DNA from: Bernardetiaceae bacterium
Lineage (GTDB): Bacteria; Bacteroidota; Bacteroidia; Cytophagales; Thermoflexibacteraceae
Assembly: GCA_025057115.1 (NCBI GenBank)
Contig: JANWWZ010000005.1
Coordinates: 74,995 to 138,994, forward strand
Direction: 5' to 3'
DNA length: 64,000 nucleotides
A program made the translations under genes and the position numbers. Positions 41,827 through 56,196 of the stretch are shown one piece after another. Every line of letters begins with the position of its first letter. Position 1 is the stretch's first letter. Below the pieces are notes generated by a model. The model had not been told where the DNA came from and did not search any database. It saw only the letters and a list, made by a program, of their open reading frames with translations.

Positions 41827-44322
41827 ATGAGACAAGTTTTTCTTTTGTCGTTTGGAGCGGTTTTTAGCCTTACAAGTGCTGCCCAGGTGCAATCTCCTGA
41901 AGGATTTTTGGGCTATCGTCTAGGCAAGCAGTTTACCCCTCATTATCGGGTAGTGGAATATTTTCGCCATGTTGCTATGCAGGCTAGCAATCAAGTCAAG
42001 ATAGTAGAATACGGCACCACTTATGAAGGACGTCCTTTACTAGCTGCTATTGTAACTTCTCCTACTAACATGGTGCAGTTAGAAGAAATTCGCCGCAATA
42101 ATCTGCGCCTTACAGGACTAGAAGAAGGGCAAGGTAATCTCAATGGTCCTGTAATTGTATGGCTCACCTACAATGTGCATGGCAATGAAGCCGTTTCCAC
42201 TGAAGCAGCCATGCTTACCCTTTACGAGCTACTTAGCAAATACACAGCTTGGCTTAAGGAGGCGGTAGTCATCATAGACCCTTGCGCTAACCCCGATGGA
42301 CATTCGCGATATGTGAATTGGTACATGCAAATGGTAGGCGTACAACCAAATATAGATCCCGATGCCCGAGAACATCATGAACCCTGGCCTGGAGGGCGTT
42401 TCAACCACTACCATTTTGACCTCAACCGCGACTGGGCTTGGCAAAGCCAGCGAGAGACTCAACAACGCATCGCCTTCTATCAGCAATGGATGCCACAAGT
42501 ACATGGCGACTTTCATGAAATGGGCGTAGAGCAACCTTATTACTTTGCTCCTGCCGCCGAACCTTATCACAAGGAAATTACTTCTTGGCAACGCGAGTTT
42601 CAAAGCATTTTAGGAAAAAACATCGCACAGTATTTTGACCGCAACCATCGCCTTTATTTCACTCGCGAAACTTTCGACTTGCTCTACCCCAGCTATGGGG
42701 ATACATGGCCTACTTTCAACGGAGCCATTGGCATGACTTACGAGCAAGGAGGCTCTGGACGTGCTGGGCTAAGCATTCTAACGAATAACGGAGATACGCT
42801 CACCCTTAGCAAGCGCATCGAAAACCAACACACGGCGGGAATGGCTACTATAGAAATAGCAGTGCAGCAGAGAAAGCGCTTATTGGAAGAATTTCGAAAC
42901 TACTTTGCCCAAGCACTCACCTATCCTACAGGTGCTTATAAATCTTTTATCATTTCAGCCGGTAACGATCCTCATAAACTCAAAACCCTTACAGAATACT
43001 TAGACCGCAACCAAATCCGCTATGGATTGGCAGCTAATGCCATGACAGTGAAAGCCTTCAACTATCGCAACGGAAAGGAAGAAACTGTTAACGTTACGCG
43101 TAATGATTTGGTCATTACCATAGCACAGCCCAAATCTGTACTAGTGAAAGTGCTTTTCAACCCTCGCACTGTCCTTGCCGATTCGGTTACTTACGATGCC
43201 ACTGCTTGGGCTTTGCCTTATGCGATGGATTTAGAGGCGTATGCTGCCGCTGAACGAATTGCCTCCACCGCCTACAAAGCACCTGAGTTTGTTAAAAACC
43301 AACCTCCTCAAGGGGGAGCATATGCCTATCTAGCGCCGTGGCGCCATTTCAACCATGCTCGTTTGCTGGCTGCATGGCTCAAAAATGGTCTCAACGTTCG
43401 TTTTGCAGAACAGGCTTTTACCCTTAACGGGACTGCTTATCAAGCGGGTACCCTTGTAGTAAGCAAAGCAGATAACACCCATGTTAATAATTTTGACCAG
43501 TTAGTAAATAATATCGCCAACAATTTACAAGTCAACATACAACCTACGCAAACAGGTTTAGTTGCTTCAGGCATTGATCTAGGTTCAACTGCTTTTAGAC
43601 TTGTTCGACCTTTTAAAGTGGCTTTAATTGCAGGGGAGGGAATTTCTCCTACTGCCTTTGGCGAAGCATGGCATTTTTTTGACCATTGGCTGGCATATCC
43701 CGTAACGGTAGTTCATCACTCCATGATAGAGAGGATGGATTGGAACAAATATGACGTAATCATTATGCCTTCGGGAAATTATCGCAACTTAGATATGAAT
43801 ACAGTTAAATCATGGCTGCGCCGCGGCGGCAAGCTCATCGCTATAGAAGATGCTATTAACGCCTTTGCCGATAAGGAAGGATTTTTCATCAAAACCAAAA
43901 AAGAAGAAAAAGAAAAAGACGCCAAACCACCCAAACCTGAAGAGTTGATCAAAAAATACGGCGACCGCCGACGTGATGAACTAACCAATAGCGTAGAAGG
44001 AGCTATTTTTCGCGTTGCGATGGATACTACTCATCCTCTAGCCTTTGGGTATACCCCCACTTATTTCACCCTTAAGCATACTAACAACTTTTACGAGTTT
44101 TTAGAAGAAGGCTGGAACGTAGGCGTGCTTAAACCTAACTCCCACGTAGATGGCTTTGTAGGTAGTAAAGCAAAGGAAAAGCTTAATAATACCCTTGTCT
44201 TTGGCGTAGAAAACTTCGGCAGAGGTACCTTGATCTATCTTGTGGACAGTCCCATTTACAGACATTCTTGGCAAGGTGGGCACTTGCTCATGAGCAATGC
44301 TATTTTCTTAGTAGGCAGATAG
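41827..44322 (+). CDS. M14 family zinc carboxypeptidase-like metallopeptidase, secreted
   Basis: 831 aa. A signal peptide (to SAAQ) precedes the M14 domain: Zn ligands in VHGNEAVSTE, the substrate-binding Arg/Asn region FDLNRDWAW, a further His in QVHGDFHEMG, and the catalytic Glu in TYEQGGSGRAG. The C-terminal half carries a GATase-like domain (KYDVIIMPSGNYRNL ... GGKLIAIEDA). The size and layout match secreted Bacteroidota peptidases of this class. Confidence 0.92.
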   Translation: MRQVFLLSFGAVFSLTSAAQVQSPEGFLGYRLGKQFTPHYRVVEYFRHVAMQASNQVKIVEYGTTYEGRPLLAAIVTSPTNMVQLEEIRRNNLRLTGLEEGQGNLNGPVIVWLTYNVHGNEAVSTEAAMLTLYELLSKYTAWLKEAVVIIDPCANPDGHSRYVNWYMQMVGVQPNIDPDAREHHEPWPGGRFNHYHFDLNRDWAWQSQRETQQRIAFYQQWMPQVHGDFHEMGVEQPYYFAPAAEPYHKEITSWQREFQSILGKNIAQYFDRNHRLYFTRETFDLLYPSYGDTWPTFNGAIGMTYEQGGSGRAGLSILTNNGDTLTLSKRIENQHTAGMATIEIAVQQRKRLLEEFRNYFAQALTYPTGAYKSFIISAGNDPHKLKTLTEYLDRNQIRYGLAANAMTVKAFNYRNGKEETVNVTRNDLVITIAQPKSVLVKVLFNPRTVLADSVTYDATAWALPYAMDLEAYAAAERIASTAYKAPEFVKNQPPQGGAYAYLAPWRHFNHARLLAAWLKNGLNVRFAEQAFTLNGTAYQAGTLVVSKADNTHVNNFDQLVNNIANNLQVNIQPTQTGLVASGIDLGSTAFRLVRPFKVALIAGEGISPTAFGEAWHFFDHWLAYPVTVVHHSMIERMDWNKYDVIIMPSGNYRNLDMNTVKSWLRRGGKLIAIEDAINAFADKEGFFIKTKKEEKEKDAKPPKPEELIKKYGDRRRDELTNSVEGAIFRVAMDTTHPLAFGYTPTYFTLKHTNNFYEFLEEGWNVGVLKPNSHVDGFVGSKAKEKLNNTLVFGVENFGRGTLIYLVDSPIYRHSWQGGHLLMSNAIFLVGR

Positions 44323-44658
44323 TTACGCATTTACATAAAATAGCCTCATAATATCCATAAAGGCAGGGTTCACTTCCTCTCTGCCGAGTAAGTTATTTAA
44401 TCAAAATCAGCCATCAGCAGCCTTTGAACTCACAAGCTCTGGCAGGTTAATAAATTGTTACAGCAGTTTATCAGGGCTATCAATTATTGATAGCTAACTA
44501 TCAATTACTTCAAAATTTGACCGCTTTCAGACCTGCAAAAGCAGGATGGAAAAAATTTTTACCCCTTCATTATCAGGTATTTATACTTTTTATCTCAAAA
44601 TGGGGGGACCTCTGGCACCATTCTGCTATTAATCATTGGCCAGCCAAAGGTCTATGTT
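44323..44658. other. 336-base gene-free stretch upstream of the ECF sigma gene
   Basis: No supported gene. It contains a GGCAG/CTGCC hairpin just after the M14 gene and three alternating copies of a CTATCAAT motif at 44477-44505, described separately. Confidence 0.5.
44477..44505. promoter_or_regulatory. Triple CTATCAAT inverted motif upstream of the ECF sigma gene
   Basis: CTATCAA-TTA-TTGATAG is followed immediately by ATTGATAG-CTAA-CTATCAAT, so three copies alternate in orientation. This layout suits binding of a dimeric regulator or mutually exclusive hairpins. It lies about 150 bases before the ATG. Confidence 0.4.
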
Positions 44659-45162
44659 ATGAACAACTTCAAAATCCTGCGTACAAAATGCCTTTCTTAC
44701 CTAAGAAAAATGGTTTCGGCAAGCAATGGTACTGCAGAAGATGCAGAGGAACTTTTCTCTGAAGCTGTGTTTATTTACCTTTCTAAAAAACCTGCTTACT
44801 TAACAGCTTCACTGCATACTTACATTTGTTCAGTTGCTAGAAGGCTATGGCTCAAGGAGTTGCGCCGCCGCAAAATCGCCGCCCAAAATGCTGATTCATT
44901 CTTAAAAGAACAACAAGATTTCAACCTGCGCACTGCTGAAGAAGAAGAAATCGTATTGCGTGCTTTTGAAAATCTGCCAGAAAGCTTTCGCGGAAAGCAA
45001 ATTTTAAATGCATTTTATTTTCAACAACTAAGCATGAAAGAAATCGCCCACCGCTTTGGGCTCCCTTCAGAAAATGCAGCTAAAAAACAAAAGTTCCATG
45101 CTATTCACCAACTGCGTTCTTTACTGCGCCAACAATTACCTGAAGTATTCGACGCTGCATAA
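44659..45162 (+). CDS. ECF-type RNA polymerase sigma factor
   Basis: 167 aa. Sigma region 2 (TAEDAEELFSEAVFIYLSKK; YICSVARRLWLKELRRRK) and region 4 (FENLPESFRGKQILNAFYFQQLSMKEIAHRFGLPSENAAKKQ) are recognisable. No anti-sigma factor is adjacent. The gene starts the accessory region that continues with the DUF3761-like protein and cas1-cas2, so it may direct their expression. Confidence 0.85.
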   Translation: MNNFKILRTKCLSYLRKMVSASNGTAEDAEELFSEAVFIYLSKKPAYLTASLHTYICSVARRLWLKELRRRKIAAQNADSFLKEQQDFNLRTAEEEEIVLRAFENLPESFRGKQILNAFYFQQLSMKEIAHRFGLPSENAAKKQKFHAIHQLRSLLRQQLPEVFDAA

Positions 45163-45211
45163 TGCTTTTTGTTTTAATTGCTTGCATCAAAGCTAAACTT
45201 CAAGATAAATC

Positions 45212-45373
45212 ATGAAAACTGTTTCCGTTCTCATTACCGCCTTGCTCTTTGGGTGCAGGTACAAAGTCATAAACCTAGTAATGCCGCGCCACGCAGTCAG
45301 TTGCAAACTGATACCTTATCTATGGGTGAAAGACCTGAACAGTCTTATAACAATACAAAATTTAAAGTTATGA
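45212..45373 (+). CDS. Possible small lipoprotein or frameshifted remnant
   Basis: A 53-codon frame starting with a good signal sequence (MKTVSVLITALLFGC) that could be a lipobox. After the Cys the translation loses protein character, whereas another frame (VQSHKPSNAAPRSQLQTD) looks more natural, suggesting a frameshift. Its TGA overlaps the next ATG (ATGA). It may be a real leader-type gene or a decayed one. Confidence 0.3.
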   Translation: MKTVSVLITALLFGCRYKVINLVMPRHAVSCKLIPYLWVKDLNSLITIQNLKL

Positions 45374-45975
45374 AATCTTACTTGTTAGTGTGGGCTATGG
45401 GCATATCGTTCATCGCCTTTGCCCAAAATGACAGCGATACTCCTCCAGGCTTTTTTAGCGACGAAGAAAATGAAAATTTGCCCGTTAGGATTCAGCCTAC
45501 TCCTAATGATCAACGGTCAAGTCAGGAACAGGATGGGCAACACGCACCGCCTCCCCCACCTGACCCAGAAACATTGCGGACATATATTCGCGTAGGGGCT
45601 ATTTGCAAAGACGGCACGCGAAGCTATTCCGTCAGCAGCGGTACTTGCTCTGGTCATGGCGGTGTTGCTTTCTGGCTGTATGGACCTCCTGGCACGCCGC
45701 CTGATACGCCATTAGAACAACTCGTACAAATTGCGCCAGGGCAACGCCGCCGCACTAATCATCGCGTTATTCCTCTAGAGCCTTCTCACTACTATCAACA
45801 AGCAGTGGTAGAAAGCGACCCAATGTACGGATGGATTTACCGCAGCCGACATCCGGCTGCCATCTTTGTAGATATTCTTATCATCGTTCTTGCCTTTTTG
45901 CAAGTGGGGTGGTTTATCCGAAAAGCTATTGAACGTTATCGCTCTGGTAACCAACAACAAAATTCACCAACATGA
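45370..45975 (+). CDS. Exported DUF3761-like protein with C-terminal membrane anchor
   Basis: 201 aa from the ATG at 45370, which gives a clean signal peptide (to FIAFAQ). An acidic, Pro/Gln-rich linker with a run of prolines follows. The core then shows GAICKDGTRSYSVSSGTCSGHGGVAFW in two adjoining parts (CKDGTRSYS and GTCSGHGGV), as in DUF3761 proteins. A final membrane helix (FVDILIIVLAFLQVGWFI) and a basic tail end it. The function is unknown. Its stop overlaps the cas1 start, so the two are translationally coupled. Confidence 0.65.
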   Translation: MKSYLLVWAMGISFIAFAQNDSDTPPGFFSDEENENLPVRIQPTPNDQRSSQEQDGQHAPPPPPDPETLRTYIRVGAICKDGTRSYSVSSGTCSGHGGVAFWLYGPPGTPPDTPLEQLVQIAPGQRRRTNHRVIPLEPSHYYQQAVVESDPMYGWIYRSRHPAAIFVDILIIVLAFLQVGWFIRKAIERYRSGNQQQNSPT

Positions 45976-46970
45976 CACAGATTCACATCAATACTTTTGG
46001 TGCTTCTGTTCATAGAGTGCAAGGTAGTTTTGAAATTATTACCCAAGAAGGCAAAACGCGCATTTCACCAGAGAAAATACGCAGTTTAGTAATTAGTTCA
46101 GCAGCGCACATTAGTTCTGATGCTATTCTGCTTGCCATTGAACACGAAATTGAGATCCTCTTCACTGACCGACGTGGACAGCCCATTGGACGCGTATGGA
46201 GTTACAAATATGGCAGCATTAGCACTATCCGAAAGCAACAAGTTTTATTTTCCAAAAATGCTGCTGGTGGGGAATGGGTGAAAGACAATGGTATTAGGCG
46301 CATTAAAGCCCAGCAAGCTATTTTAAAAGCCATTGGGCGCGATAGACCTGCTCATCAAAACGCTATTCATGAAACCATTGCGCGGATGGAGGAATTTGCC
46401 AATGCCATCGCTCAACTTCCTCAAGCCCCTGCCTACGAATGGGCTGCTACCCTGCGCGGTTATGAAGGCAATGCTTCTAAGCTCTACTTTGAAATGCTTT
46501 CTGATCTACTTCCAGAGCAGTACCAATTTAAGGTTCGCACGCGCCGACCCGCTCAGGATATCTTTAACGCTGCATTGAATTACCTCTATGGTATCCTTTA
46601 TGGCAATGTGGAAGGAGCGCTTATTAAAGCAGGTATCGACCCTTACTTAGGAGTGTTGCACGCCGATGAATATAACAGACCCGTGCTAGCATTTGATATG
46701 ATTGAGCGCTATCGACATTGGGCAGAGGCTGTTCTGATGCAAATCTGCTTCCGAAGGCTTTTGCTTCCTTCTATGGCAATTTATCAGCAGGGAGGATGGT
46801 GGATGGAAAACGAAGGCAAGCGTTTACTTGCTACTTCTTTCAATGACTATCTCAACGAAGTCATCACTCATAACAACAAACGACGCACTCGCCTTACTCA
46901 TATTCAAGAAGATGCCAACCAACTCGCTCAGCAATTGCTTAAAATGGATATGGAGCATGAAACTCAATAG
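45972..46970 (+). CDS. cas1: CRISPR-associated integrase Cas1
   Basis: 332 aa. The N-terminal beta domain has the Cas1 pattern LVISSAAHISSDAILLAIEHEIEI in two adjoining parts. The helical catalytic domain shows LRGYEGNASKLYFEML with Glu165, GVLHADEYNRPVLAFDMIE with His230, and the acidic residues Asp242/Glu245 that complete the metal site. It integrates spacers into CRISPR arrays. It is followed 3 bases later by cas2. No other cas gene and no repeat-spacer array is in the window. Confidence 0.93.
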   Translation: MTQIHINTFGASVHRVQGSFEIITQEGKTRISPEKIRSLVISSAAHISSDAILLAIEHEIEILFTDRRGQPIGRVWSYKYGSISTIRKQQVLFSKNAAGGEWVKDNGIRRIKAQQAILKAIGRDRPAHQNAIHETIARMEEFANAIAQLPQAPAYEWAATLRGYEGNASKLYFEMLSDLLPEQYQFKVRTRRPAQDIFNAALNYLYGILYGNVEGALIKAGIDPYLGVLHADEYNRPVLAFDMIERYRHWAEAVLMQICFRRLLLPSMAIYQQGGWWMENEGKRLLATSFNDYLNEVITHNNKRRTRLTHIQEDANQLAQQLLKMDMEHETQ

Positions 46971-46973
46971 CCC

Positions 46974-47660
46974 ATGAAAGACCCCGTTGAGATCATGCGG
47001 CGGCTTAACAAAAGTCTCCAACTGCGCAATCAAATGATTCATAACCGTTTGTTGGGATTGGACTCCTCTTCACCGCAAACCCGCTCAGAAGAGGAAAAGC
47101 CGCCTTCTGGTGATCAAGACGCCACTCCGGTGGATGATTTCAGTTTGCCATTTTTCTTGATAGATGAAGAAGCCCCACCTGAGATTGAGCAAGCATGCGT
47201 GAATCAGACAATTGATCTTGGTGGTGAAGCATCGCAACCTGCTGCTAAGGTTAGAAAGCGCGGCATGCCCAAACCCAATGAAGAACAGATAGCCGCGGCT
47301 ACCGAAAGAATTGAAGCCCTGAAAAGTTATTTTGCTCAACTCAAACCAAAACCTGCTGGATATATGCTTTGCTTTGTCATGTATGATGTCGAAGATGATC
47401 GAATTCGCAAAAAAATTGCCGATTATCTCATCGAAAAAGGACTGCAGCGCGTGCAAAAGTCTGTTTTTCTAGGTCAGCTCAGTCAGAAAACCTATGATGA
47501 GATTTATCGCACTATGCATGCGCTGCAGGCAACGTATGAAAACCAAGATTCCATTATGATAGTACCCATAGCTGAACAAGAGTTGCGCTCTATGCGACTC
47601 ATCGGGCGCGACATTGATGTGGAAATTACTCTAGGAAGAGCTCACACTTTGTTCTTTTGA
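46974..47660 (+). CDS. cas2: Cas2 with a 129-residue N-terminal extension
   Basis: 228 aa, against about 90-100 for a usual Cas2. The C-terminal ~100 residues are a Cas2 ferredoxin-like domain: CFVMYDVEDDRIRKKIADYL with Asp138, then QRVQKSVFLGQL. Residues 1-129 are a helical, then acidic/Pro-rich low-complexity segment, then a Lys-rich helix (PNEEQIAAATERIEALKSYF). I see no known nuclease or polymerase motif in the extension. It forms an adaptation complex with Cas1. Confidence 0.88.
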   Translation: MKDPVEIMRRLNKSLQLRNQMIHNRLLGLDSSSPQTRSEEEKPPSGDQDATPVDDFSLPFFLIDEEAPPEIEQACVNQTIDLGGEASQPAAKVRKRGMPKPNEEQIAAATERIEALKSYFAQLKPKPAGYMLCFVMYDVEDDRIRKKIADYLIEKGLQRVQKSVFLGQLSQKTYDEIYRTMHALQATYENQDSIMIVPIAEQELRSMRLIGRDIDVEITLGRAHTLFF

Positions 47661-47839
47661 AACGGGTTCATCCATGTAAAACTTGCCGCTAATGCACGAA
47701 ATGCAAGTTTCATCTGCGCGTTCGTGGGTAAATTAAACTTTTTATGCAACCCCTACCGTTGTTCGCCTGCCCACGAACAACCTTATTGTGATTAAAAGCG
47801 CAAAAAGTGCGGCTGGGCTGTTTTTCACAAATAAAGAGC

Positions 47840-47863
47840 ATTGTTCGTGAAGACACGAATAAT
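47840..47863. repeat. TTGTTCG-family hairpin, copy 1
   Basis: ATTGTTCGTG, 4-base loop, CACGAATAAT: 10-bp arms with one mismatch. It sits 7 bases before the perfect copy. Confidence 0.65.
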
Positions 47864-47870
47864 ACTCTTT

Positions 47871-47900
47871 GCCATTGTTCGTGTCTTCACGAACAATGGC
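47871..47900. repeat. TTGTTCG-family hairpin, copy 2 (perfect 13-bp arms)
   Basis: GCCATTGTTCGTG, loop TCTT, CACGAACAATGGC: perfect 13-bp arms. A lone right arm, CGAACAATGGC, recurs at 47916-47926. No T run follows, so it is not a typical terminator. Confidence 0.75.
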
Positions 47901-47929
47901 GAAAAATTAAACAAACGAACAATGGCAAA

Positions 47930-48783
47930 GGTTTCATCTGTGCATTCGCGGCTAATTTTCATGTATTTGTAGTTGAATTAAAAATTTCATTTTACCCAAA
48001 CTGCATTACAATGCATGCAACTTTTTCTAGCAGCTAATACTTGAAATGGAGAATAACCTAAAAAAGTTTTGCATTTGGGACAAACGTAACTAGCTCTAAA
48101 CTCGACATCTAAAGCTTTTAGTTTTTCTTCTTCGCTTATGCTTTCGCAAACTATGATAGCAATAGCACTCCCTACGAATGGAATAAGCGATAAACCTGCG
48201 CGCAAAATGGTTTTTTTCCATTTCCCCCTTCTACTAATGGCTCTTTTCATTTTTTCGTAATGAAGATATACTTCCTCCAACTGGGCAAAGGCTTTTGTAT
48301 AATCATTAGGATTAGAGGCATCGGGCTGCTCGCTGGCAGGTAGGCGAAAGTAGGGAGATAAATCTAACCTAATGTTAGCGATTTTGACTTCATCTCCTGG
48401 TTTTAATACACACCGCTTCACCTGCAACTGATTAACAAACGTCCCATTGGCTGAGCCTAAATCTTCTATCAGCAGAGAAAAGTTGCCCAACACCGTTAGC
48501 TCAGCATGAGTGCCACTCACCTGCGGAAAATCCAAGACAATATCGTTATCAGGATGCCGACCTATTCGATACTTTTTCATAAATATTTAAATTAAAACTT
48601 TTAGCCGCGTATGATTTCCGTACAAATTATAGTTTTTTTCTTTATATTCATGCCGTTAAAATAATTCGACTATGACACCCAAAGACCAAGAAAAAACTTC
48701 GGCGATTCACAACAAAAGTCAAAGTGCAGAAGGAAATGCTTCGCAAAGCAGCAATCAAGTTAGCAACGTAACTGGTGGCACAG
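47930..48783. repeat. Left copy of ~0.85-kb direct repeat flanking the WD40 cassette
   Basis: Matches 58991-59861 in the same orientation: a palindromic element, the whole FHA/zinc-ribbon gene, the divergent promoter and about 110 bases of the plus-strand small gene. By eye the copies are highly similar with scattered differences, then diverge abruptly. Confidence 0.8.
47987..48580 (-). CDS. FHA-domain protein with C-terminal zinc ribbon
   Basis: 197 aa. The N-terminal FHA phosphothreonine-binding domain shows YRIGRHPDNDIVLDFP, then VSGTHAEL, then LGSANGTFVN. A charged helical linker and a weakly hydrophobic segment (SLIPFVGSAIAIIV) follow. The C-terminal zinc ribbon has CPKC and CMHC pairs. 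It would read phosphorylated partners of the neighbouring kinases. A frameshifted paralogue lies at 59056-59662. It is divergent from the gene at 48672. Confidence 0.85.
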   Translation of the reverse strand: MKKYRIGRHPDNDIVLDFPQVSGTHAELTVLGNFSLLIEDLGSANGTFVNQLQVKRCVLKPGDEVKIANIRLDLSPYFRLPASEQPDASNPNDYTKAFAQLEEVYLHYEKMKRAISRRGKWKKTILRAGLSLIPFVGSAIAIIVCESISEEEKLKALDVEFRASYVCPKCKTFLGYSPFQVLAARKSCMHCNAVWVK

Positions 48784-49628
48784 TAGGAGGCGTAATTGCT
48801 ACCTCAGGTGTTTTGGCTGTTGCATGGGGAATGAGCCAGCAAGGAGAAATAAACCCCCAAATAGCAAAAGCTGCTCAAGATGAAAGTTCTCCAAAGCAGT
48901 CTCCCGAAGCAGAGCAAGTAAACCAAAGCCAATGCAGTGAAAGCGACCCCGTATTTGAAAGCACTCAAAAAACTACTAACCACTACAGCAATGACGCACC
49001 AATTTCCGCAGCCACTTCTGTGCGCGATGATATGAGTTTCTCGGAAGCATTTGCTGCTGCTCGGCAGGAAGTAGGTTCAGGAGGAGTATTTATTTGGCGA
49101 GGAAACCTATATGGCACTTACTACAAAGAAGAATGGGAAAACATGACCTCCGAACAAAAAGCGGAATACAATCAAGCCATCAGCCAATATGCTGCCCAGC
49201 ATTTGCCCAACACCTCAGAACCTTCCACACCAGAAGAGGAACCCCTTGAAAATCGAACGCAAGAGGAAGTATATGCTGCCCTGCATCAAGCAAATTATGC
49301 CTCTGCGAAAGAGGAAAGAATAGTCCTTGCAAGAGCCGATTTCAACGAAGACGGTGTAATCGATGCCGTGTTGATAGACACTAATAATGATGGAGAGCCT
49401 GATAGAATAGCAATAGATAGCAACTACGATGGAATAGTAGATGCCGTAGCCGTTGATCACGACTATGATAATATAGCAGATGCCATCTACCTGGACTTCA
49501 ACCAAGACGGTACTCCTGATTTAGTTACTGATACAAATAACATCATAGACCCTGAAATGAACATTACTCAAACGATGGACAACAGCGATGACTTTGACAA
49601 CGATGCAGATGTATCGGAGTGGATGTAA
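48672..49628 (+). CDS. Hypothetical protein with membrane-like segment and Ca2+-loop repeats
   Basis: 318 aa. The N-terminal ~36 residues (HNKSQSAEGNASQSSNQVS) are shared with the gene at 59754. A Gly-rich hydrophobic stretch (GGVIATSGVLAVAWGM) may be a membrane helix. A polar linker follows, then five 13-residue units of DxNxDGxxDxxxx type near the C-terminus, typical of calcium-binding loops. No enzyme motif is seen. It overlaps the caspase gene start by 26 bases. I do not recognise a family for the whole protein. Confidence 0.75.
   Translation: MTPKDQEKTSAIHNKSQSAEGNASQSSNQVSNVTGGTVGGVIATSGVLAVAWGMSQQGEINPQIAKAAQDESSPKQSPEAEQVNQSQCSESDPVFESTQKTTNHYSNDAPISAATSVRDDMSFSEAFAAARQEVGSGGVFIWRGNLYGTYYKEEWENMTSEQKAEYNQAISQYAAQHLPNTSEPSTPEEEPLENRTQEEVYAALHQANYASAKEERIVLARADFNEDGVIDAVLIDTNNDGEPDRIAIDSNYDGIVDAVAVDHDYDNIADAIYLDFNQDGTPDLVTDTNNIIDPEMNITQTMDNSDDFDNDADVSEWM
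49338..49532 (+). repeat. Five 39-base units encoding Asp-rich calcium loops
   Basis: Units read DFNEDGVIDAVLI, DTNNDGEPDRIAI, DSNYDGIVDAVAV, DHDYDNIADAIYL and DFNQDGTPDLVTD. The DxNxDGxxD pattern is the EF-hand/dockerin-like loop. Confidence 0.8.
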
Positions 49629-50385
49629 GCTATGGCTTTTACTGTGTTTTTGCCAAATAGGAGCAAGAACGTATGCGCAAGACTCCCGAATATATGCAGT
49701 AGTAGTAGGCATAGCTGACTATTTGCACAATAATCCTGTGTCGGGATTAAAAGATTTAAACTTTTGCGATGACGATGCAAGAGCGATGCATCAATTTTTA
49801 AGTCGTACTAATGCACACGTAGTCTTGCTTACGGATGCCCAAGCTACCAAACGCAACATTTTGCAAGCCATGACCCGCGTGTTTGGAATGGCTTCCGAAA
49901 AAGATAAACTATTGTTCTTCTTTTCAGGACATGGGTCCCCGCAAGGGTTTATTCCTCATGACTTCAATAGCAATAACTTCCTATTTCACAGTGAGATTAA
50001 AGCTCTCTTTAAACAGTCAAAGGCTCGGCTGCGCGTATGCATTGCCGACGCTTGCCACGCTGGAAGCATCAAGCAGAGAACAACCCATTCCCGCGCTCCT
50101 GGTGACAATCAAAAAACACTAAAAAGTAGCCCCGAAGTAGTGGTGATCATGTCATCCAGAAGTGAAGAAGTGTCGCAAGAAGATCCTCAATTACAAAGAG
50201 GCGTATTCACTTATTTTTTGCTGAAAGCACTTAGCGGAAGGGCGGATGCCAACAACGACCGAAAAATCAGCATTACAGAACTGTTTAACTACCTAAGCAA
50301 TCAAGTTGCTATCTATACAAACCAAGAACAGCATCCAATCATTTTTGGTCGATTTGATAAAAATATGATCATCGTAAACTACTAG
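49603..50385 (+). CDS. Exported caspase-like protease (peptidase C14 family)
   Basis: 260 aa from the ATG at 49603 (an ATG two codons on is equally possible). A signal peptide appears to end at ARTYAQ. The caspase fold follows: YAVVVGIADY, then LKDLNFCDDDARAMHQFL, catalytic His110 in FFFSGHGS and Cys151 in IADACHAGS, and late VVVIMSSRSEEVSQED and GVFTYFLLKAL. Such caspase-like proteases cleave after specific residues and often act as executioners in signalling or death systems. It sits in the FHA/kinase/phosphatase cassette. Export would place it away from the cytoplasmic kinases. Confidence 0.88.
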   Translation: MQMYRSGCKLWLLLCFCQIGARTYAQDSRIYAVVVGIADYLHNNPVSGLKDLNFCDDDARAMHQFLSRTNAHVVLLTDAQATKRNILQAMTRVFGMASEKDKLLFFFSGHGSPQGFIPHDFNSNNFLFHSEIKALFKQSKARLRVCIADACHAGSIKQRTTHSRAPGDNQKTLKSSPEVVVIMSSRSEEVSQEDPQLQRGVFTYFLLKALSGRADANNDRKISITELFNYLSNQVAIYTNQEQHPIIFGRFDKNMIIVNY

Positions 50386-50393
50386 CTAAAAAA

Positions 50394-51002
50394 ATGAACA
50401 TCATCGTTACTGAATGCACCAATTGCAAGTTGAAGATTAAGTTCGATGAAGACAAGGTAAATCCTACAACGCCACTGGTGCGCTGTCCTGCATGCCGCGC
50501 TATTAACAACATAGCTGCTCAACTGAAACAAAAAGAGGACTGGCAGCAATCTTTACAAGAACAAACCCTTGTAGAACAACCTCCTACAGAAGAGGTAGGG
50601 TGGATAGTAGTACACGATGAAAACACACCCGTACAAACCCTCCCTTTAAAAATGGGAAAGAACGTCATCGGCAGAGCAGCTCGAAGCAAGCTCGCAGATG
50701 TGCCAATAGTAACCGAAGACCGATACATGAGCCGTAATCATTGCACAATAGAGGTAATTAGACGAGCCAATGGGCAGCTTCAATACGTCATTTATGACAA
50801 CGGCAGTACCAACGGCACTTACATCAATGCTGTAAAAAGCTCGCGCTTGAAACCTAACATGCAGGTGATCCTACACGATGGCGATACCATTCAAATAGGA
50901 AGAACAAAAGTGGTGCTGAAAACCAAAGAATGCGCCGCTAACGCTGCACAAGCCACAAGTACGGTTGTCATGTCTAGTTACATGCCCACTATTATCATGT
51001 AA
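50394..51002 (+). CDS. FHA-domain protein with N-terminal zinc finger
   Basis: 202 aa. The N-terminal zinc-ribbon-like motif has CTNC and CPAC pairs (as in MJ0042-type fingers). The FHA domain spans about residues 60-170: VIGRAARSKLADVPI, then MSRNHCTIEV, then DNGSTNGTYIN. The C-terminal tail is Ser/Thr-rich. It is tightly spaced with the caspase (8 bases) and the phosphatase (3 bases), supporting one operon. It is likely to read Thr-phosphorylated partners. Confidence 0.88.
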   Translation: MNIIVTECTNCKLKIKFDEDKVNPTTPLVRCPACRAINNIAAQLKQKEDWQQSLQEQTLVEQPPTEEVGWIVVHDENTPVQTLPLKMGKNVIGRAARSKLADVPIVTEDRYMSRNHCTIEVIRRANGQLQYVIYDNGSTNGTYINAVKSSRLKPNMQVILHDGDTIQIGRTKVVLKTKECAANAAQATSTVVMSSYMPTIIM

Positions 51003-51005
51003 AAC

Positions 51006-52916
51006 ATGAAAACGTTAAAAATAACCATAGCTCCCCCGCTTGCTTTTAATGAACAGGGCAAGCGGGCTAACAACGAAGACAGCATTTTTCCTCCTCTTGA
51101 CCAAGCTGATATCCATAGCCGCTTATTTATGGTATGCGATGGAGTAGGCGGTGCTGAAAAAGGAGAAATTGCAAGCCAGATCGCCTGCCAAACCATTAGC
51201 CAGTTTTTTGCCAAATACTGCCCTGACTTCTCCAATGAAGAACACGTGCAAAAAGCTGTGCAAATCGCACAACAAGAAATAGAAATGTACATCAAAAGGC
51301 ATCCCGAAGCGCAAGGTATGGCAACTACCCTTGCATTGTTACACCTACACACACAAGGCGCTACCGTAGCCCACATAGGGGATAGTCGCGTCTATCACAT
51401 CCGCAATGGAAAAATTCTCTACAAAACACGCGACCATACCCTGGTTAATGAATGGCTCGCCAATGAAATCATTACCCCCGAAGAGGCTAAAAACCATCCT
51501 AAAAAAAACGTGTTAGTCAGAGCCCTGCAAGGAACCAATCAGCAAAAAGCAAAAGCAGAAGTAAAACTCATTACTGACCTGCAACCTAATGACTATTTTT
51601 TACTATGCTCTGACGGGGTGCTTGAACACTTAGAAGACGATACCTTATGCCAAATCCTCCAAAGTAACAACAGTCTCGAGCAGAAAATAGAGGTCATCAA
51701 AGAGTATGGAAGAGACATCAACCGAGACAATTACTCAGCATACCTAATAGCGCTCGAAAGTGTAACAGACCAACCACCCCTCTCTACCAGCATAAAAGCC
51801 CCCGCCAGTAAACCCCGCACGGCAAACTACAACCAAGCAGATAAAAGCTCTCCAACTAAAGCAAAAAAATTCCAACTGCTCAACCTACCTAAAATTAAAA
51901 AAGCCGAAGCAACACCGCAGCAGGACTTGAACCAAATCCAACCTACTAACAAGAGTAAAAAATACGTAACTCTTTCCGTTCTTGCAGCCATCTTACTTCT
52001 AGCAGGCGGACTGTACGCCTTTTTTGGTAGCAAAGAACATGTGCGCACATTTAAAGGACACACCGCTTATGTTTGTTCCGTAGTCTTTTTCCCTGATGGA
52101 CGCTATGCTTTGTCAGGAAGTGGGGATAGTACCTTGAAGTTATGGGATATTCCTACAGGGGAGTGTTTGCAAACACTGAAAGAGCATGGCGGTGTAGTTT
52201 ATTCCGTAGCTTTTTCTCCTAATGGACGCTATGCCCTCTCGGCAAGTGAGGACAACACTTTAAAGCTCTGGGACCCCCCTACAGGGCGATGCCTCAAAAC
52301 AATGAAAGGACATGATAATATAGTTCGTTCCATAGCTTTTTCTCCTGATGGACGCTATGCCCTCTCGGGAAGCGATGATTTCACTTTAAAGCTCTGGGAC
52401 ATACAAACAGGTCAATATCTCAAAACACTGGAAGGACATAAAAACATAGTTCGTTCTGTAGCTTTTTCTCCTGATGGGTGTTATGCCCTCTCGGGAAGCG
52501 ATGATAAAACGTTGAAGTTATGGGACCTGACTACAGGTCAATGCCTAAAAACCATGCAAGGGCACAGAGATGTAGTTCGTTCTGTAGCCTTTTCCCCCAA
52601 TGGGCGGTATGCCCTCTCAGGAAGCGACGATATAACGTTGAAGTTATGGGACTTGACTACAGGTCAGTGCCTCAAAACGATGGAAGGGCATGAAGGTTGG
52701 ATTAATTCCGTAGCCATTTCTCCTGATGGACAGTATGCCCTCTCGGGAAGTGTTGATAAGGCTTTGAAGCTATGGAATATACAAACGGGTCAATGCTTAA
52801 AAACAATAGAAGAGCATGGCGGTACGGTTTACTCCGTAGCCTTTTCCCCCGATGGCCGCTATGCCCTCTCAGGAAGTTTAGACAAAACGTTGAAGTTATG
52901 GGATATAACCAAGTAA
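51006..52916 (+). CDS. PP2C phosphatase-transmembrane-WD40 propeller fusion
   Basis: 636 aa. The PP2C domain (about 1-255) keeps its metal motifs: RANNEDSIFPP, VCDGVGGAEKGE, AHIGDSRVY, CSDGVLEHLED and RDNYSAYLI. After a basic linker comes one membrane helix (about 320-340) and then seven WD40 units to the C-terminus. Lysines before the helix favour an N-in/C-out topology, putting the propeller in the periplasm. It would dephosphorylate targets of the neighbouring kinases under control of the propeller. Confidence 0.9.
   Translation: MKTLKITIAPPLAFNEQGKRANNEDSIFPPLDQADIHSRLFMVCDGVGGAEKGEIASQIACQTISQFFAKYCPDFSNEEHVQKAVQIAQQEIEMYIKRHPEAQGMATTLALLHLHTQGATVAHIGDSRVYHIRNGKILYKTRDHTLVNEWLANEIITPEEAKNHPKKNVLVRALQGTNQQKAKAEVKLITDLQPNDYFLLCSDGVLEHLEDDTLCQILQSNNSLEQKIEVIKEYGRDINRDNYSAYLIALESVTDQPPLSTSIKAPASKPRTANYNQADKSSPTKAKKFQLLNLPKIKKAEATPQQDLNQIQPTNKSKKYVTLSVLAAILLLAGGLYAFFGSKEHVRTFKGHTAYVCSVVFFPDGRYALSGSGDSTLKLWDIPTGECLQTLKEHGGVVYSVAFSPNGRYALSASEDNTLKLWDPPTGRCLKTMKGHDNIVRSIAFSPDGRYALSGSDDFTLKLWDIQTGQYLKTLEGHKNIVRSVAFSPDGCYALSGSDDKTLKLWDLTTGQCLKTMQGHRDVVRSVAFSPNGRYALSGSDDITLKLWDLTTGQCLKTMEGHEGWINSVAISPDGQYALSGSVDKALKLWNIQTGQCLKTIEEHGGTVYSVAFSPDGRYALSGSLDKTLKLWDITK
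52041..52913 (+). repeat. WD40 array, 7 units (phosphatase fusion)
   Basis: Seven 126-base units encoding 42 residues each (…GHxxxVxSVAFSPDG…LSGSxDxTLKLWD…). Units are nearly identical to each other and to those in the three kinase-related genes. Confidence 0.9.
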
Positions 52917-53022
52917 AAAGATAAGCAAAATCTCGACACACCTTTTGCGCAATTTGCAAAAAGTCAACTTTTTGCCTTACATAACTGCCTCAAACATTTC
53001 AAACCTTTCCAAACTCACTGAT

Positions 53023-54966
53023 ATGACCCAAGAACTCCAAAAAGGCACTACGCTCAAAAATGGTAAATACGTCATAGACCAAGTTCTCGGAAGAGGAGGT
53101 TTCGGAATCACTTATAAAGCGCTCATGCACACTACCATCACAGGACCGCTGGGAAAAATAAATACCGTTGCTACAGTGGCTATCAAGGAATTTTACTTTG
53201 CCGATGCCTGCCAAAGACACACCGACGGAAAAAACGTCCTCATCACCTCCTCCTCTAAAAAACTTCTCACTCAACGTCTCAAAGAAAAATTCCTTAGAGA
53301 AGCTTACATCCTTGCCCGACTCCAACATCCTCACATCGTCCAGGTACTGGAAATCTTTCAAGAAAACAACACCGCTTACATGGTTATGCAGTACATCGAT
53401 GGTCCTTCCTTAGCCACTCGCGTCCAACAAAGTTTGAGCGTCAAAGACAGCGTGTGTCTAATCAAACAAGTCCTGCGAGCCCTTGACTTCGTACATCAAA
53501 ACAAGACCCTCCACCTGGATGTAAAACCGCAAAACATTCTTTGCACCAAAGAAGACCAAGCCATTTTGATTGACTTCGGCATTGCCAAGCACTACGACGA
53601 AGAAGGACAAGCCACCAGCACGGTGTTAGCTGCCAAAAGTGCGGGGTTCTCGCCTCTTGAGCAGTACGGGGCGGTGAACTTGCAGACGTTTTCTCCCGCT
53701 ATTGACATTTACGCCGTTGGAGCGACACTGTACTTTTGTTTGACGGGCAGGGTGCCAGTGGAAGCGCATTTGCGAGCTATTGGTGAAACGATGCTCGAGC
53801 CGATGGAGCTCAATGCCGCTGTTCCGCGACAGCTCAACGCAATTGTCATGAAGGCGATGGAGCTAAACAGAAGCAAGCGTTTTTCTTCTTGTCAGGACAT
53901 GCTGCATGCCCTTGAACAAGTAAGTTTTGAGCAGGAGGAAGCAAAAGAAGAAAAAACGCTTATTTCTCCCACTGTCCCTACCCAAGTATCAGAGAAGGCG
54001 TACCAGAGCGAAAAGCACGAGCAGCAGGAGGTAGGTTCCATTTTCGCTTCCGATGCAAAAACAAACGGAGAAAGATGCCTATGCACTTTAGAAGGTCACA
54101 CCGATGTAGTCCGTTCTGTAGCCTTCTCTCCTAATGGGCGGTATGCCTTATCGGGAAGCGATGATAATACTTTAAAGTTATGGGATACCACTACAGGGGA
54201 GTGTTTCAAAACAATAGAAGGGCATATGTGGGAAGTTTATTCCGTAGCCTTCTCTCCTGATGGGCGTCGGGTTTTGTCAGGAAGTAAGAATGGTGATTTA
54301 AAGTTATGGGACCCTATTGCGGGAAAGTGCCTAAATACAATGAAAGAACACCAAGGGGCGATTTACTCCGTAGCCTTCTCTCCTGATGGACAGTATGCCT
54401 TGTCAGGAGGCACTGATGAAACTTTAAAATTATGGGACCTGACTACGGAAAAGTGCATCAAGACAATCGAAAGCCACGGCGGTGTGGTTTATTCTGCAGC
54501 TTTCTCCCCTGATGGACGGTATGCCTTGTCAGGAAGTTTGGATAACACGTTAAGATTGTGGGAAATCGCCACAGGTCAGTGTATAAAAATATTGGAAGGA
54601 CATAGGTGGTGGGTTTATTCTGTAGCCTTTTCTCCCGATGGACGGTATGCCCTTTCGGGCAGTTATGATAACACTTTAAAACTATGGGACCTAATTATAG
54701 GAAAGTGTTTGACAACGATGGAAGACCATGGCGGTGTAGTTTATTCCGTAGCTTTTTCTCCTAATGGACGCTATGCTTTATCGGGAAGTGCTGATACAAC
54801 TTTGAAACTATGGGACCTACAAACAGGTCAGTGCCTCAAAACGATGGAAGGGCATGGTGGTACAGTTTATGCTGTAGCCTTCTCTTTTGATGGATGTTAT
54901 GCTCTTTCAGGAAGTGGGGATAACACTTTAAAGCTATGGGATATGCGAGAGTGGGCAGAAAAGTAA
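53023..54966 (+). CDS. Ser/Thr protein kinase-WD40 propeller fusion, intact kinase
   Basis: 647 aa from the ATG at 53023; its paralogues begin with the same MTQELQKGT/MTRELQKGT. All kinase motifs are present: GRGGFGITY loop (23-31), VAIK Lys55, catalytic loop HLDVKPQN with Asp166 and Asn171, DFG Asp184, GFSPLEQYG activation segment and DIYAVGATLYFCLTG. An acidic linker without a membrane helix precedes seven WD40 units and the tail REWAEK. It is a predicted soluble, cytoplasmic kinase regulated or targeted by its propeller. Confidence 0.92.
   Translation: MTQELQKGTTLKNGKYVIDQVLGRGGFGITYKALMHTTITGPLGKINTVATVAIKEFYFADACQRHTDGKNVLITSSSKKLLTQRLKEKFLREAYILARLQHPHIVQVLEIFQENNTAYMVMQYIDGPSLATRVQQSLSVKDSVCLIKQVLRALDFVHQNKTLHLDVKPQNILCTKEDQAILIDFGIAKHYDEEGQATSTVLAAKSAGFSPLEQYGAVNLQTFSPAIDIYAVGATLYFCLTGRVPVEAHLRAIGETMLEPMELNAAVPRQLNAIVMKAMELNRSKRFSSCQDMLHALEQVSFEQEEAKEEKTLISPTVPTQVSEKAYQSEKHEQQEVGSIFASDAKTNGERCLCTLEGHTDVVRSVAFSPNGRYALSGSDDNTLKLWDTTTGECFKTIEGHMWEVYSVAFSPDGRRVLSGSKNGDLKLWDPIAGKCLNTMKEHQGAIYSVAFSPDGQYALSGGTDETLKLWDLTTEKCIKTIESHGGVVYSAAFSPDGRYALSGSLDNTLRLWEIATGQCIKILEGHRWWVYSVAFSPDGRYALSGSYDNTLKLWDLIIGKCLTTMEDHGGVVYSVAFSPNGRYALSGSADTTLKLWDLQTGQCLKTMEGHGGTVYAVAFSFDGCYALSGSGDNTLKLWDMREWAEK
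54076..54963 (+). repeat. WD40 array, 7 units (intact kinase)
   Basis: Seven 42-residue units following the kinase linker, ending in the WAEK tail common to the three kinase-series genes. Confidence 0.9.
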
Positions 54967-55040
54967 GCAAATCCATACGGCAAAACGCATCTTTTTCTCA
55001 CTTGACAAACCCTCTTTTTCACCGCATACTACTCTAACTT

Positions 55041-56105
55041 ATGACTCAAGAACTCCAAAAAGGCACTACGCTCAAAAATGGCAAATACGCCATAGAGCAA
55101 ATTCTCGGAAGAGACCTCCCAAGAAAAATGTGCACAATGGCTTTTATTACCGCTTCAATCTCATTTTTAACAGAAGGAGTGTACCCCATGTTTAAACCAG
55201 AAAATGCAGGAAAGTGCCTACGAACCTTAAAAGGACACTTTGATATAGTTCGTTCTGTAGCTTTTTCGCCTGATGGGCGCTATTCCCTCTCAGGAAGCGA
55301 CGATAAAACGTTGAAGTTATGGGACCTAGCTACAGGTCAGTACGTCAAAACAATCCACGCCCATAAAGACTGGGTTGCTTCTGTAGCCTTCTCTCCCGAT
55401 GGGCGTTACGTTCTCTCGGCAAGCTGGGATAAAACATTCAAGTTATGGGACCTGACTACGGACCAATGCGTCAAAACAATAAATGGGCATCACGATAGGA
55501 TTCATTCGATAGCTTTTTCTCCTGATGGGTGCTATGGCTTGTCGGGAAGTCAGGATAAAACTTTGAAACTATGGGACATTGCCTCTGGAGAGTGCATTAA
55601 AACGATGGAAGGGCATAGCGGTTCAGTGTATGCTGTTGCCTTTGCTCCCAACGGACCTTATGCCCTCTCTGGAAGTGAGGACAATACCTTAAAACTATGG
55701 GACATCAGTACAGGCAATTGTTTAAAAACACTGGAAGGGCATACAAACTTGGTCAATTCGGTAGCGTTTTCTCCCGATGGACGCTATGGCTTGTCAGGAA
55801 GTTTTGACAATACCTTGAAGCTGTGGGACCTGACTACAGGTCAGTGCATCAAGACAATGGAAGGGCATAGCGGTGAAATTTATTCTGTAGTTTTCTCCCC
55901 CGATGGGCGTTATGCCCTCTCGGGAAGTTGGGATGCTACATTGAAATTATGGGAAGTGAGCACGGGAAATTGTTTAGAAACCATGGAAGGGCATAGCAGC
56001 GGGGTTTACTCCGTAGCCTTTTCTCCCGATGGGCGCTATGTTCTCTCGGGAAGTAGTGACCTAACTTTAAAGTTGTGGGATGTGCAAAAATGGGCAGAAA
56101 AGTAA
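55041..56105 (+). CDS. WD40 protein with vestigial kinase N-terminus
   Basis: 354 aa. The first 24 residues match the start of the neighbouring kinases up to the middle of the glycine loop (LGR). About 270 residues of kinase domain are then missing, replaced by a short segment (DLPRKMCTMAFITASISF) before seven WD40 units and the WAEK tail. There is no stop codon and the frame is clean, so it may be a free propeller, for example a decoy or regulator, or a paralogue in decay. Confidence 0.85.
   Translation: MTQELQKGTTLKNGKYAIEQILGRDLPRKMCTMAFITASISFLTEGVYPMFKPENAGKCLRTLKGHFDIVRSVAFSPDGRYSLSGSDDKTLKLWDLATGQYVKTIHAHKDWVASVAFSPDGRYVLSASWDKTFKLWDLTTDQCVKTINGHHDRIHSIAFSPDGCYGLSGSQDKTLKLWDIASGECIKTMEGHSGSVYAVAFAPNGPYALSGSEDNTLKLWDISTGNCLKTLEGHTNLVNSVAFSPDGRYGLSGSFDNTLKLWDLTTGQCIKTMEGHSGEIYSVVFSPDGRYALSGSWDATLKLWEVSTGNCLETMEGHSSGVYSVAFSPDGRYVLSGSSDLTLKLWDVQKWAEK
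55214..56102 (+). repeat. WD40 array, 7 units (kinase-less paralogue)
   Basis: Seven 42-residue units. The last two closely match the last two units of the gene at 56197 (SGNCLETMEGHS-type), pointing to exchange between arrays. Confidence 0.9.
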
Positions 56106-56196
56106 GCAAATACCTACTGCAAAAATGCATCCTTCTCAAATTTGGTAAACATCTCCCCGGTGGCTGGTACAAAACCTTTCCACATTCACTTGCTAC

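Follow-up and report, generated by a model that had tools for sequence, protein, structure and literature searches.

A predicted membrane-anchored DUF3761 protein encoded with the remote cas1-cas2 genes of a probable three-locus type III CRISPR-Cas system in Bacteroidota

Several described CRISPR (clustered regularly interspaced short palindromic repeats)-Cas systems resemble parts of the locus reported here, an operon encoding an extracytoplasmic function (ECF) sigma factor, an exported DUF3761 protein, Cas1 and Cas2 in a 64,000-nt stretch of DNA from a Bernardetiaceae bacterium (hereafter the window, part of the 175-kb contig C55). With known type III adaptation modules the system shares Cas1, Cas2, an array, Cas6, Cas10-Csm or Cas10-Cmr, a CARF nuclease, and Csx20. 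It differs from them in that the operon includes the gene for an exported membrane protein with a single span, that the Cas2 of this genus has a 130-residue N-terminal extension, and that the three parts of the system lie apart in the window's genome. For type III-E, sigma motifs at the cas1 promoter led to the proposal that CASP-sigma drives spacer acquisition during infection (Strecker et al. 2022, PMC10028731), and PvdS is cited in the same paper as raising cas1 in Pseudomonas. These cases are a precedent for ECF control of cas1. CASP-sigma is likewise a CRISPR-associated ECF sigma factor; however, the window system is probably not III-E, and its sigma gene is in the same operon as cas1-cas2. 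Cas7-11, Csx29, Csx30, and Csx31 were not recognized in the surroundings of the operon, nor in the Csm operon described below, although no genome-wide profile search was made for them. The Calp system (CalpL-CalpT-CalpS, PMC11229360) also has a type III-linked sigma factor, whereas here there is no CalpL protease beside the operon or in the Csm operon, and the sigma gene belongs to the adaptation operon.

Altae-Tran et al. (2023, PMC10910872) reported adaptation modules linked to transmembrane-domain proteins, with WYL plus helix-turn-helix (HTH) among the new associations. The main text of that paper does not name DUF3761 for its 'UAS' modules, and the family may already be one of the 188 modules it covers. 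Because transmembrane proteins linked to adaptation modules had been reported generically there, the DUF3761 family is not categorically new. A literature search for the word DUF3761 returned an unrelated occurrence only. The window protein scores above the gathering threshold of the Pfam family DUF3761 (PF12587), but other DUF3761 proteins are encoded away from cas1, and those examined have the core near the C-terminus with no helix after it.

All four genes lie on the forward strand and are closely packed in the open reading frames of the window. Coordinates and family matches bore out the gene content and order given in the earlier note (ECF sigma, exported DUF3761 gene, cas1 starting inside its stop, cas2). 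The first gene (44659-45162) encodes an ECF-type sigma-70 factor of 167 aa (TIGR02937, 2.1e-14) and is kept as the first operon gene in four genomes of the genus. Upstream of it, in a stretch alignable among the window and the same-genus loci L002, L003, and G003, is a palindrome, TATCAATTATTGATA (44478-44492), which may be an operator, promoter element, or other control site. The second gene (45370-45975) encodes the exported, membrane-anchored DUF3761 protein of 201 aa (PF12587, 3.9e-7; 30.9 bits against a gathering cut-off of 29). Its start is probably the ATG at 45370, and the mechanically listed TTG at 45178 is probably wrong, because the signal sequence MKSYLLVWAMGISFIAFAQ, which can be aligned with relatives, starts at 45370. 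The cas1 gene (45972-46970; 332 aa; PF01867, 4.4e-65; PADLOC Cas1b, 9e-99) overlaps the DUF3761 stop by 4 nt, and its product has the catalytic-type motifs LRGYEG and LH...LAFDM (LHADEYNRPVLAFDM). It is followed after 3 nt by cas2 (46974-47660; 228 aa; PADLOC Cas2b, 3.7e-23), which completes the pair expected of an adaptation module and matches PF09827 (1.7e-15) over residues 131-206 only. The 130 residues preceding that match (window 46974-47366, beginning MKDPVELMRRLN) are conserved in the genus. A structure model of the long Cas2 (predicted local distance difference test, pLDDT, 47.6) placed helices at residues 4-26, 73-82, and 103-122 of the extension at low confidence. Judged by eye, the 223-aa Cas2 of L067 has a start similar to this extension. 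An Rfam search of 43500-48700 gave no match.

The earlier note had found neither array nor effector genes and had spoken of an orphan cas1-cas2 pair. For the 64-kb window this stood, as no CRISPR-type repeats were found within it; for the genome (2,995,891 bases in 86 contigs, queried by searches and stretches) it did not. The array that follows cas2 in a relative supplied a repeat pattern, and this pattern had 88 matches in the genome, 66 on contig C24, 1 at the end of C77, and 21 at the start of C86. The number of repeat copies is put at 87-88, and those examined were all identical to GTCGGAGTACTCCCTTCAGCAAGAGATGGATTGCGAC. The array sequences hold 85 distinct spacers, 65 on C24 and 20 on C86, with none in common. 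C24 overlaps the C77 end via the leader and C86 via the trailer, and the pieces therefore belong to one array or to near-identical arrays. Within one array, strain variation or an ambiguous assembly could explain why C24 and C86 share a trailer but no spacers. The array flank on C77 consists of housekeeping genes, and no cas genes were recognized in the C77 and C86 stretches examined.

A third site, C3:55433-64169, carries a complete type III-A effector operon for Cas6, Cas10, Csm2, Csm3, Csm4, Csm5, a CARF-PD(D/E)XK nuclease, and Csx20. Its Cas10 (885 aa) is of the Csm1 type, Cas10a, with HD and GGDD motifs present, and the type III-A effector set (Cas10a, Csm2, Csm3, Csm4, Csm5) was found in the L005/L006 proteins. 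This operon has no cas1 or cas2 and no array close by. Exactly one Cas1, that of the window, was found in the whole genome, so the CRISPR locus elsewhere lacks adaptation genes of its own, an outcome that the earlier note had set against its orphan reading. Effectors and adaptation genes are thus on different contigs, and their linkage is common but not strictly defining. Both gene sets lie deep inside their contigs (C3, 91 kb; C55, 175 kb), and an assembly break beside the window is therefore not the cause.

Three same-genus relatives have Cas1 proteins that are 78-79% identical to that of the window. Each has the order sigma, small exported protein, DUF3761, cas1, cas2, array, and the 37-nt array repeat differs from the window-genome repeat at 2-3 positions. 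The window's genome therefore contains a cognate array, with a repeat near-identical to those of same-genus cas1-cas2 arrays. In L003 and G003, genes for Cmr5, Cmr6, a CARF nuclease, and Csx20 are directly upstream of the operon. Since the window's genome has a Csm operon and these relatives have Cmr genes, the sigma-to-cas2 unit occurs with both III-A and III-B effectors. The DUF3761 gene of L003 is broken by a stop codon in that assembly. The earlier suggestion that the window's Cas1-Cas2 could serve a distant array gained support from the remote array, the single Cas1, and the near-identical repeat of the relatives.

The small exported protein of the same-genus operons is absent from the window's operon, and the best match for it in that genome was not credible (E 0.39). 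Proteins of this kind, about 134 aa and without a Pfam family, recur near cas1-DUF3761-cas2 operons as well (L002 8977-9381, L003 4189-4599, L065 10046-10462, L079 13597-14001, L080 5159-5560, L069 3542-3940).

We searched the reading frames of the 30 loci of the order with Cas1 most like that of the window, using profiles from the window's genus. A DUF3761 gene adjoined cas1 in 15 of the 30, upstream in the 4 loci of the genus and directly after cas1 in 11 others (L069, L070, L072, L073, L074, L077, L078, L079, L080, L088, L093). The next gene was cas2 in 10 of these 11, and no cas2 was recognized beyond DUF3761 in L070. In a sixteenth case, G109, the DUF3761 gene is directly before cas2 and beside a III-B operon; the contig ends shortly after cas2, and no cas1 was recognized on it. 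When the family profile was run against 291 genomes from the order (evenly drawn, not exhaustive), 16 genomes had the family at E<1e-20, 15 times beside cas1 and once beside cas2, and no full-length members were found away from cas1/cas2 in this sample. Weaker matches (E>1e-12) in the order were other DUF3761 proteins, such as tetratricopeptide repeat (TPR) proteins and short secreted proteins. Among 395 genomes sampled from the phylum, any DUF3761-family match occurred in 13 and Cas1 in 206.

When 72,556 plasmids were searched with the L079 protein alone, a single record was returned, from Aureispira sp. CCB-E (class Saprospiria). The matching gene sits between cas1 and cas2 and its product has the family layout; the plasmid also carries cas6 and cmr1-cas10-cmr3-6 (type III-B). 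This is the cleanest evidence for the link between DUF3761 and adaptation, because cas1 played no part in the search. Phage records gave no DUF3761-family match, and IMG/VR contigs contained DUF3761-like proteins without the C-terminal helix and no cas1/cas2 like those of the window in the flanks examined. Several families of the order, and another class besides, thus show the association of DUF3761 with cas1/cas2. These results support, more strongly than the window could, the view of the earlier note that it is unusual for such genes to be coupled to a membrane protein, and the DUF3761-cas1-cas2 synteny that it proposed to check in relatives was kept. All typed loci are type III, with III-A in L093 and the window's genome and III-B in L072, L077, L080, L139, and the genus relatives. 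In a Cas1 tree the genus with the upstream order and most loci with DUF3761 in between fell in separate clades, with L093 placed uncertainly on a long branch. Either several gains occurred, or one gain was followed by losses and reordering that kept the link.

The window DUF3761 protein has an N-terminal signal sequence, a core at residues 74-104, a C-terminal helix at about residues 165-183, and a basic tail. Topology was read from hydropathy rather than from a dedicated predictor; the signal sequence and basic tail suggest that the core is outside the cytoplasm and the tail is cytosolic. The family core motif, RxGxxCxDG...GxCxxHxGVxxWLY, contains two cysteines, and in an alignment built from cas-linked DUF3761 genes the residues R, G, C, D, G, C, G, V, W, and Y were invariant within the 31-residue core. 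Core and C-terminal helix were kept in all 16 proteins checked (15 from the loci and that of Aureispira), each of which has a hydrophobic segment at the N-terminus and then nothing of comparable hydrophobicity until the C-terminal helix. The tail after this helix is 4-18 residues long across the family (18 in the window protein) with net positive charge, and the full layout of signal sequence, core, C-terminal helix, and short basic tail was present in every one of these 16. The gene, with a pN/pS (ratio of nonsynonymous to synonymous polymorphism) of 0.21-0.31, is under purifying selection at a level typical of a constrained protein. Comparing the family profile with the PDB brought up no credible match.

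Taken together, these data indicate with near certainty that the operon is the adaptation module of a scattered, three-locus type III CRISPR-Cas system and serves a remote array, a service that repeat similarity and elimination lead us to infer for the window's Cas1-Cas2. Cas1-Cas2 from the operon would add spacers to the array on the other contigs, and array transcripts would guide the type III-A Cas10-Csm complex encoded at the third site. A functional link between the DUF3761 protein and adaptation is very likely, because it is cas1 and cas2, not cas10, that the gene accompanies; the protein would be a dedicated adaptation accessory in some type III systems of Bacteroidota. The ECF sigma factor could turn the operon on when the cell senses an attack or stress on its envelope. 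In the inner membrane, the DUF3761 protein would have its two-cysteine core outside the cytoplasm and its short basic tail inside, and could hold or recruit Cas1-Cas2 close to where foreign DNA comes in, such that memory would be formed from incoming DNA. Tethering or guidance of Cas1-Cas2 at the membrane by this protein is our leading mechanism, and a tentative one; that it anchors the memory-making enzyme at the inner membrane so that spacers are captured at the point of DNA entry is doubtful. For the explanation as a whole we estimate a probability of about 0.7.

Several findings weigh against this explanation. Half of the 30 closest Cas1 loci have no DUF3761 protein, including L067, the nearest outside the genus, and the protein is therefore not universally needed. 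Proteins that have nothing to do with CRISPR carry the DUF3761 domain too, and hence the domain itself is not specific to adaptation. Any contact of the DUF3761 protein with Cas1-Cas2 or DNA is conjectural, and an AlphaFold2 model of the protein was uninformative (mean pLDDT 46, two sequences). The linkage of array, adaptation genes, and effectors rests on repeat similarity and elimination in an assembly of 86 contigs.

To our knowledge, spatial coupling of adaptation to the envelope is known for no CRISPR system, and such coupling would exist here if the membrane mechanism were true. The preference of Cas1-Cas2 for invading over host DNA is only partly understood, and capture at the membrane would be a testable spatial answer. 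The case also illustrates that a CRISPR system can appear orphaned within 64 kb yet be complete genome-wide.

In a different account of the same genes, the DUF3761 protein acts as a receptor for DNA or phage, at the surface or in the periplasm, and regulates adaptation without holding Cas1-Cas2. Regulators do recur beside these operons (ECF sigma in the genus, an HTH-like gene in seven loci, WYL in G109, sigma-54 in Aureispira), as does a second small exported protein; however, the DUF3761 protein has no recognizable signaling domain and almost no cytosolic part, and we regard a receptor as unlikely. Alternatively, the protein could be a type III effector that disturbs membranes, like Csx23 or Cam1, and be in the adaptation operon by chance. 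Every typable locus is type III, and membrane proteins are among the ancillary effectors of that type, but the constant partner of DUF3761 is cas1/cas2 rather than cas10, domain profile searches detected no CARF or other ligand-binding domain in the protein, and its bulk is predicted outside the cytoplasm, all of which make this account improbable.

ECF sigma genes often precede a gene for a membrane anti-sigma factor. The sigma gene directly precedes the DUF3761 gene in the window, and the DUF3761 protein might be the anti-sigma factor of that sigma, with cas1-cas2 merely in the regulon. We rejected such a pair as very improbable on predicted topology and on the loci without sigma: the 4-18 residues past the helix leave no space for a cytosolic sigma-binding domain, and in 11 loci and in Aureispira DUF3761 comes after cas1 and the locus lacks a related sigma gene. 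In three genus members, moreover, another exported gene stands between sigma and DUF3761. The last alternative, raised by the earlier note, of a true orphan pair acting as a casposon-like integrase on non-CRISPR DNA has almost no chance of being correct, since, although the 64-kb window holds no array or effector, genome-wide searches for Cas1, repeats, and effectors found an array, effectors, and no second Cas1, and the operons of relatives run directly into an array with a near-identical repeat.

Other genes were seen near related Cas1 loci. A divergent HTH-like gene of 258-288 aa (a 275-aa protein), possibly a regulator, is next to cas1 in seven loci (L069 6029-6889, L073 3265-4041, L074 8333-9112, L077 6888-7715, L078 235-1065, L079 10475-11299, L080 6943-7809). 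Its product has a conserved C-terminal G.YEMYHL...ILKNI...ISTT and no credible Pfam match. The HTH-like protein, or in G109 a WYL regulator, is near these operons in place of the ECF sigma factor, and the sigma-54 regulator of Aureispira is near the cmr genes. In four loci a gene of 344-374 aa lies between cas1 and a 160-aa Cas2 (L071 9723-12852, L075 10076-13295, L076 3970-7102, L068 8408-9472). The L071 gene has a BT4734-like_N match, and the gap gene probably encodes a CRISPR-associated primase-polymerase (CAPP, PMC8211822). Like DUF3761, CAPP is an accessory gene beside cas1/cas2 in related loci (L071, L075, L076); in contrast, it is a cytosolic enzyme, filling the cas1-cas2 gap where other loci have the DUF3761 protein. 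In L071 and L075 a gene for a DUF7017/TOTE-domain protein follows, and an AAA/PIF1-type helicase with a TBP-TOTE domain lies just 5' of cas1 in L067 (2623-4704).

In the window, a signaling island (47987-58887) is directly 3' of the operon. It encodes an FHA protein, a caspase-like peptidase C14, a second FHA protein, and WD40 proteins, among them one with a PP2C phosphatase-like N-terminal half, a protein kinase-WD40 fusion, and two further WD40 proteins, and contains about 30 WD40 units of 126 nt.

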